From the NCBI GenBank assembly GCA_947449255.1, contig CANFQX010000002.1, positions 124,001 through 188,000 of the forward strand: DNA of 64,000 nt. The letters are read 5' to 3'. Shown piece by piece: positions 53 through 14,548 of this stretch. Both the position numbers and the translations under genes were made by a program. Each line of letters starts with the position of its first letter. The first letter of the stretch is position 1. This stretch comes from Pseudobdellovibrionaceae bacterium. GTDB taxonomy: Bacteria > Bdellovibrionota > Bdellovibrionia > Bdellovibrionales > Bdellovibrionaceae. The notes below the pieces were generated by a model. That model saw only the letters and a list, made by a program, of their open reading frames with translations. It had not been told where the DNA came from and did not search any database.

Positions 53-247
53 TTAGATGTGATCAATCATAATATCTCGAGCCATAACGGTTTTTCGCCC
101 GTCGGCTTTAGCGCTATCGACGCCTTTCAAACAAAGTTGCTCGATTGCCTTGCTAAGTATATCGATAGTTTCTGCAGAAGTGTTCATCCCACCTTTTTCT
201 TTGATCAACTTTTTTACCTTACTTGTTACAATTAGAACATCTGTCAT
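53..247 (-). CDS. Bacterial histone-fold DNA-binding protein (Bd0055-like)
   Basis: A 64-residue single histone fold with no tail. Helix 1 covers about residues 8-18, the long helix 2 about 23-46, and the DGRKTVMARDI block (49-59) is the loop-2 signature of archaeal histones, with the Arg-Thr pair (R51, T53) and the structural Asp (D58). It strongly resembles the short histone described in Bdellovibrio bacteriovorus (Bd0055), a major chromatin component shown to form dimers that bind DNA in an unconventional way. The ATG is supported by a GGAG ribosome site about 10 bases upstream. It lies 97 bp downstream of a metallophosphoesterase gene on the same strand, and this gap probably carries its own promoter, although I could not fix one. 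The family assignment is from sequence; the role in nucleoid packing is inferred from the relative. Confidence 0.93.
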   Translation of the reverse strand: MTDVLIVTSKVKKLIKEKGGMNTSAETIDILSKAIEQLCLKGVDSAKADGRKTVMARDIMIDHI

Positions 248-344
248 GATTTAAAATCTCCATCCATGTTTATTTTTTACTCTAAAAGGTTTGCATAGCG
301 TCCAGAAATTGACAAAGAAAATTGGTTTTTGCGGTGCGATAAAC

Positions 345-1805
345 CTAACGCACGGCTGGTTTAGTAAGCTCTGATTTTCCATCGAAAAACTTCTTAAGTT
401 CAGCTTTTCTAGGGCCAGCTTTAGTTGGAGCGATCCATATGAAAGTTTTCTGATCAAGAGGTTTAGTACATTCTAAATCAAGAAAAGCAGGGGACCAGCA
501 TCCACTATTTAAGTGTTCAACCGCACCTATTATTTCATGGCGACTGTGGTGGGTGTGTCCATAGATAATTCGCTTAACTTTTGTGATTGCACTTGTCATA
601 GCTAAAACCCGATCATCAGGCTCTTTGTAGCCCGAGACATGTGAATTTATAGACCGACTGTAAAACAAGAAAAAAGGTAATAATGCAAACAATGGAATAA
701 ATGCCCAAAATATTGAAATGTCCAGTACTGCTCTGATAAACACAAAAAGCTGGAATATTAAAAAAAATCCCAAAAAAATTATGAAGGCTCTATCCAACCA
801 AAGCTCTCTTGCTAATAGCATGGGGTTGCTTGCGGCTGGAGCGACAAAAAGCTCCTTCATTTCTCTGACCATACGAGGCTCAGCATTAGATTTTTCGGAA
901 ATGTAAGATATCCTGTCTTCAATTCGAAGTGGATTCCGAATAGGTGCCGATAGCCGATCAATAAACGAATGCACCAAAGTAGCCATAGCGCCCCAAAACC
1001 AAGTAAAAATTAATCCTGGCTGGGCTTTCCACATGTATCTAAAAAAGAATTTTACATACTCTGCAAGTGACATAATATAATTAGTATCAACATGTGGATT
1101 GAAGAAACCCATCCCGTTCATAATATATCGGCAAGCTAAGTTCCCAAATGGCAGCTTCAAGGCAATATAATTGTAGCCCTTTACATAGGGATTAATAGGA
1201 TCTTCACAAAGGCAATAGGGGTCATACTGATTTCCGTGCTCAATCAATGTGTCTTGGTTGCTGATATAGAACCATTCGATGAACCTCACTTGAATTCGAT
1301 TTTCCAGAGGAATACTGAAGTGCTTTAGGATCTCTTCCTGAACAACTTTAAAATGCATCTCTAAATCATGATTTCCCATGATAAATACAACGCGGTGTCC
1401 TCTATTAATAAATCCGCTGAGTGCCTGCATAAATTCAGCATGATCCTCTAAAATTTTAGATATTTTAAATTGAGACCGCTCTGGCCGAGCATAAAGTCCC
1501 CGGTGCCGCTCCAGCCAACTTATGTGAAAAATAGGTTCATCTGGCAATGCCATGACACTATCAAAATCAAAAACATCCCCGTTTAAAATCAACTCGACCT
1601 TTGCTCCATTAGCGCATTCTTCAATATGTTTCAAAAAATTTGTAAAAATATCGTCGAAAAAAAACTGTCTTGTCTTAAACTTCTTCCACAAGGGAAAGCG
1701 CAGATTGACGGGCTCTGCTTCCGACAAATGCAAGTCACTTATTACAGCGGTAAATGTTGCTGATCTGAAATCGGAATTTAGATTGTTCAAAAAAGAAGTG
1801 GGCAA
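345..1805 (-). CDS. Membrane-anchored metallophosphoesterase
   Basis: A 486-residue calcineurin-like phosphoesterase. The metal-binding motifs are in order: SDLHL (D24, H26), GDVFD (D77), GNHD near residue 140 and GHTHH near 427. About residues 340-395, between GNHD and GHTHH, hold two strongly hydrophobic segments, so the catalytic domain is interrupted by a membrane hairpin. It begins like LpxH (DLHLS) but is twice as long and is not a convincing LpxH. The substrate is unknown. The start is TTG at 1805, chosen because a near-perfect GGGAGGAAGAT ribosome site lies directly upstream. Only 17 bases separate it from the divergent murD, so each promoter must lie inside the other gene. Confidence 0.85.
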   Translation of the reverse strand: MPTSFLNNLNSDFRSATFTAVISDLHLSEAEPVNLRFPLWKKFKTRQFFFDDIFTNFLKHIEECANGAKVELILNGDVFDFDSVMALPDEPIFHISWLERHRGLYARPERSQFKISKILEDHAEFMQALSGFINRGHRVVFIMGNHDLEMHFKVVQEEILKHFSIPLENRIQVRFIEWFYISNQDTLIEHGNQYDPYCLCEDPINPYVKGYNYIALKLPFGNLACRYIMNGMGFFNPHVDTNYIMSLAEYVKFFFRYMWKAQPGLIFTWFWGAMATLVHSFIDRLSAPIRNPLRIEDRISYISEKSNAEPRMVREMKELFVAPAASNPMLLARELWLDRAFIIFLGFFLIFQLFVFIRAVLDISIFWAFIPLFALLPFFLFYSRSINSHVSGYKEPDDRVLAMTSAITKVKRIIYGHTHHSRHEIIGAVEHLNSGCWSPAFLDLECTKPLDQKTFIWIAPTKAGPRKAELKKFFDGKSELTKPAVR

Positions 1806-14248: not shown

Positions 14249-14548
14249 ATGACACCGAACCTGAACAGTTCTGATAATCTTTTTGTCGCTAACCTTCAAT
14301 CGGTGAGCCTTGAAAAACTCGTTAAGAGTAAGCTAGAAGTATTGTTTGCTCAGCAAAAAGAAGCTCAAGTGGATCTCAATGGTCTTTATAATATTGTTAT
14401 TGAACAAGTTGAAAAGCCATTACTTGAACTTGCCTTGCGCGCCTACAACGGCAATCAAGTTAAAACTGCACAAATGTTGGGTATCAATCGCAATACACTT
14501 AAAAAGAAAATTGATAATTACAAAATTAGAGTAAAAAAATTGAACTAA
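14249..14548 (+). CDS. fis: Fis-family DNA-binding regulator
   Basis: A 99-residue protein of Fis size. The C-terminal 45 residues, PLLELALRAYNGNQVKTAQMLGINRNTLKKKI, match the Fis helix-turn-helix closely, including the GNQ turn and the GINRNTLRKK-type recognition helix. The N-terminal half is weakly conserved but has the expected helical dimerisation pattern. The start is supported by GGGAG five bases upstream. It lies just before dnaB. Fis-like proteins bend DNA and regulate growth-related promoters, so together with the histone it may add to nucleoid structure; that is inference. Confidence 0.85.
   Translation: MTPNLNSSDNLFVANLQSVSLEKLVKSKLEVLFAQQKEAQVDLNGLYNIVIEQVEKPLLELALRAYNGNQVKTAQMLGINRNTLKKKIDNYKIRVKKLN

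Follow-up and report, generated by a model that had tools for sequence, protein, structure and literature searches.

In a 64,000-nucleotide stretch of a Pseudobdellovibrionaceae bacterium genome (GenBank assembly GCA_947449255.1, contig CANFQX010000002.1, here C2, positions 124,001 to 188,000; hereafter the window, meaning this whole stretch), the minus-strand gene at positions 53-247 is, judged from its letters and their conservation, an intact histone of the Bd0055 (HBb) type at a conserved chromosomal place. The reading that we favor, with a probability of roughly 0.85, is that it is the Bdellovibrio singlet histone, which would act as a dimer, bend DNA and compact the chromosome alongside HU/IHF, and be transcribed from its own promoter. 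The gene is already known: it belongs to a described family, is expected in the genus, and is of low novelty. Small additions to the existing picture are a conserved extended -10 promoter-like element ahead of the gene and the lack of a ZZ-type histone in this genome.

An intact histone gene and its relation to Bd0055

The open reading frame (ORF) is complete, with an ATG start, 64 codons and a TAA stop, and lies at C2:124053-124247 in an assembly of 3.21 Mb with a completeness rating of 99.97%. A Shine-Dalgarno-like GGAG (258-261, minus strand) stands 10 nt ahead of the ATG and is kept in relatives as GGAG(AGG). The 64-residue product has no tail and carries both the DGRKT motif and the clamp residue D58. 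It passes the Pfam histone model PF00808 (22.3 bits; cut-off 21.4) and scores less convincingly against other generic models (DUF1931, 19.1 bits; the NCBIfam archaeal histone model, 29.8 bits against a cut-off of 50); PADLOC returned no match. A six-frame PF00808 search of the genome missed the gene, which we read as a limit of sensitivity.

Far stronger similarity was found among solved structures, where phmmer matched 8fvx and 8cmp, both Bd0055/HBb, over all 64 residues at E 3e-32; the next natural histone was HTkC (9f2c), at E 5e-5. Identity to the crystallized protein of Bdellovibrio bacteriovorus, which has the same length, is 56/64 (87.5%). Using the contact positions given in PMC11317129, we found no difference at any published DNA-contact residue: the RKTxxxD motif occupies its published positions (R51, K52, T53 and D58), as do the α1 lysines K10, K12 and K16. 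All eight substitutions (T2, D3, I6, G20, I30, D44, M60 and I64) fall outside the published contacts, and two of the residues, I6 and M60, are absent from the 47 other distinct orthologs. These results bear out the preliminary description of the window, which had called the gene an intact, tailless Bd0055-type histone with its own ribosome site and had proposed both a histone-fold profile search and comparison with Bd0055 and other Bdellovibrionota.

An AlphaFold2 monomer model, built from 17 orthologs, has a short third helix. Searched with Foldseek, its top five matches were HBb/Bd0055 chains, the best being the HBb-DNA complex 9ezz (query TM-score, TMq, 0.82) and 8fvx, followed by HLp and HTkC. 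The protein belongs to the α3-truncated "bacterial dimer" class, which forms no nucleosomes. Archaeal traits, namely long α2 and α3 helices and the tetramer-stacking histidine, are absent from this 64-residue protein, which has A48 at the histidine position (equivalence from PMC10627809). Bacterial dimers have been described as lacking the tetramer residues R48 and N52 (PMC11390915); the window protein, in its own numbering, has A at 48 and K at 52. The label "archaeal-type", applied earlier, is misleading as to behavior: DNA is bent but not wrapped by the ortholog (PMC11317129, PMC11390915).

Conservation across the phylum

Singlet orthologs are present in all 24 genomes of the genus, so that histones, described beforehand as rare in bacteria, are indeed rare overall yet universal here. 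Across the family, 65 of 66 genomes gave a match to a single-protein query (E<=1e-3), the unmatched genome being 67% complete; in two of those matched (G042 and G046) the sole match is a ZZ-type histone, which leaves singlets in at least 63/66. At the level of the phylum, 319 of 369 genomes have some α3-type histone match to a profile, a count that includes ZZ and other histones. Twelve residues (T8, S9, K10, K12, K16, N22, T23, S24, K52, T53, R57 and D58) are invariant among 47 distinct orthologs. Relative to the window copy, the proportion of nonsynonymous differences (pN) is about 0.04-0.11 and that of synonymous differences (pS) about 0.54-0.86, with a mean ratio of 0.10; these values point to strong purifying selection on the histone, with silent sites near saturation. 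Because orthologs occur in 65/66 family genomes and pN/pS is about 0.1, 53-247 is not a chance ORF. Universal presence in the genus, purifying selection and the usual recurrence of the same neighbors together indicate a vertically inherited core gene, in agreement with the core-genome location first proposed.

Proposed function and alternative explanations

The most likely function, by analogy with the ortholog, is that of an abundant, sequence-nonspecific, dimeric DNA bender. Two chains would pair through their long α2 helices into a handshake dimer, as shown for the ortholog and suggested here by 87.5% identity and the model. At the minor groove, this dimer would grip the DNA backbones with α1 (T8, S9, K10, K12 and K16) and with the L1-L2 loops (N22, T23, S24, K52, T53 and R57). 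If the protein behaves as HBb does in vitro and in molecular dynamics (MD) simulations, a 36-bp stretch of DNA would bend by about 84 degrees, with no sequence preference, and the chromosome would be compacted alongside HU/IHF; transcription would proceed from the gene's own sigma70-like extended -10 promoter, as conservation of that element suggests. The protein would be expected to stay dimeric because the stacking residue (archaeal H49) and the face-to-face tetramer residues (R and N) are absent. HBb is itself a dimer that bends DNA and forms no nucleosomes (PMC11317129), and no protein in the nucleoid fraction was more abundant than Bd0055, for which attempts at deletion failed (PMC10627809).

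Several observations weigh against this reading. The AlphaFold2 model is of a single chain and of moderate confidence (predicted local distance difference test, pLDDT, 77). Codon usage, compared with the ribosomal cluster in a genome whose bias is weak, gives the histone a score of -0.053 against a window mean of -0.045, and 0.5% of ribosomal chunks score as low; usage at background level lends no support to histone abundance. Further, two published studies of the ortholog conflict, one favoring bending and the other a coating of straight DNA. In the latter, Hocher et al. proposed that dimers bind end-on and form a filamentous sheath on straight DNA instead of bending it. The residues involved are identical in the window protein, which speaks for the sheath; but bending is favored by the crystal forms obtained later, by assays of tethered-particle motion, supercoiling and ring closure, and by MD (PMC11317129), and we consider the sheath improbable. 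As the contact residues are identical to those of HBb, whichever binding mode is right for HBb should hold for the window protein.

It is very unlikely that the window histone has instead taken on a local regulatory or accessory role in this species and is no longer a global nucleoid protein. Such a role would accord with background codon usage and with the three genes of the HU/IHF family (PF00216) in the genome; however, the contact residues are invariant, the family preserves the neighbor order, B. bacteriovorus has resisted attempts to delete the gene, and DNA affinity purification sequencing (DAP-seq) of the HBb ortholog showed genome-wide nonspecific binding without a motif. The same three PF00216 genes led us to reject a global nucleoid organizer that replaces HU. 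The suggestion of a nucleoid built with histones accordingly finds partial support, and exceeds what the sequence can bear given these genes and the codon usage. That a short helical ORF resembles a histone by chance might be argued from the weak generic Pfam scores (22 bits) and the failed six-frame search, but this reading is already refuted by the E-value of 3e-32 to solved histones, universal orthology, synteny and purifying selection, and we assign it a negligible probability.

A conserved promoter-like element

Upstream of the histone, in the 97-nt gap that separates it from the neighboring phosphoesterase gene, lies an extended -10 promoter-like element (287-315, minus strand), consisting of TTGTCA (315-310), a 17-nt spacer ending in TGc (295-293), and AAACCT (292-287). 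It was found through comparison of species and not by a promoter scanner; a sigma70 consensus scanner reported nothing in the histone region, and an Rfam scan of the histone leader was likewise empty. Among close relatives, 25 of 26 distinct upstream regions contain the pattern TTGTCA-N12..16-TATG, where shuffled sequences gave a mean of 0.05; among more distant relatives 11 of 35 do, against a shuffled mean of 0.03. In relatives the element is positioned 51-69 nt ahead of the start codon. The hexamer of the more distant copies varies (AAGCAT, AACGCT, CAGCAT or CAGTCT) but retains A at position 2 and T at position 6, the bases that an extended -10 sigma70 promoter preserves. Conservation of this kind suggests that 287-315 is a sigma70-like extended -10 promoter of the histone. 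A genome-wide search found the strict pattern a single time, but this uniqueness alone means little, since a backward control was also found once.

The form TTGTCA-N14-TGn-nAnnnT is kept across the genus although silent sites are saturated, and conservation of the element extends to part of the family. This may hint at a dedicated control point, for example one that is histone-sensed or timed to predatory growth, in place of a plain housekeeping promoter; we regard that interpretation as unlikely. The attack-phase FliA promoter consensus, TTAAG-N16-CCGATA (PMC3627812), is not what stands upstream of the histone.

Gene neighborhood

The next gene upstream, in the same direction, encodes a calcineurin-like metallophosphoesterase with hydrophobic segments (345-1805, minus strand); PF00149 covers residues 20-192, a second phosphoesterase-like piece lies at 398-439, and the hydrophobic segments fall between them. 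Beyond it lies murD. On the other side of the histone is a convergent ligA, whose stop (C2:123994) falls ahead of the window, followed by gatC-gatA-gatB; murD and the gat genes were named from sequence and not by profile search. Just past the ligA end, between ligA and the histone, the plus strand carries at positions 1-26 an inverted repeat (ACCCATGG-loop-CCATGGGT) with TTTT after it, possibly the ligA terminator; a terminator scan did not list it and reported nothing in the histone region.

Among 42 loci from public genomes, including many other Bdellovibrionota, the metallophosphoesterase gene and/or ligA-gatCAB adjoin the histone in most, and inserted DNA displaces the phosphoesterase or ligA in some; the metallophosphoesterase is the usual histone neighbor across the family. 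One locus with a Bdellovibrio-type histone and ligA-gatCAB (CALQIT020000112.1) is titled as a Streptomyces griseus metagenome-assembled genome, and the bin is probably mislabeled or contaminated. The Fis-like gene once cited as a neighbor (14249-14548, HTH_8) is 14 kb from the histone with many genes between, and is irrelevant to it.

Comparison with known histones

No second histone was found in this genome with either the singlet query or a profile of ten longer histones of relatives. Those longer proteins, in which a Cys/His-rich, ZZ-like domain at the N-terminus precedes the histone domain, fit the published ZZ histone class (PMC11390915); lengths, distribution and the relatives suggest that Bd3044 of B. 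bacteriovorus (PMC10627809) is also of the ZZ type. ZZ-type (Bd3044-like) histones are patchy, occurring in 7 of the 24 genus genomes. In Bdellovibrionota their C-terminal histone domain is 41-54% identical to the window singlet, which lacks both the N-terminal ZZ-like Cys/His zinc domain and the linker; the ZZ-histone profile aligns over the histone part only. A member of the genus can therefore manage with the singlet alone, and this species offers a simpler background for testing the singlet's role.

The face-to-face histones, HLp of Leptospira perolatii (9qt0) and HTkC (9f2c), are α3-truncated too and are the next-best structural matches (37-38% identity), but they form tetramers, unlike the bacterial dimers. 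Archaeal nucleosomal histones (HMfB and HTkA) share the RKT...D clamp and three-helix fold with the window protein, whereas they have longer α2 and α3 helices and stacking residues, and wrap DNA into hypernucleosomes; similarity to HMfA/B is weak (E 0.15-0.8). Bd0055/HBb (PDB 8fvx, 8fw7, 8cmp, 9ezz and 9f0e) has length, fold and contact residues in common with the window protein, and the gene order around the histone recurs in the B. bacteriovorus genome kdesi. The comparison leaves the known picture unchanged, and confirms that the Bd0055 histone is a fixed component of Bdellovibrio genomes, passed on by vertical descent.
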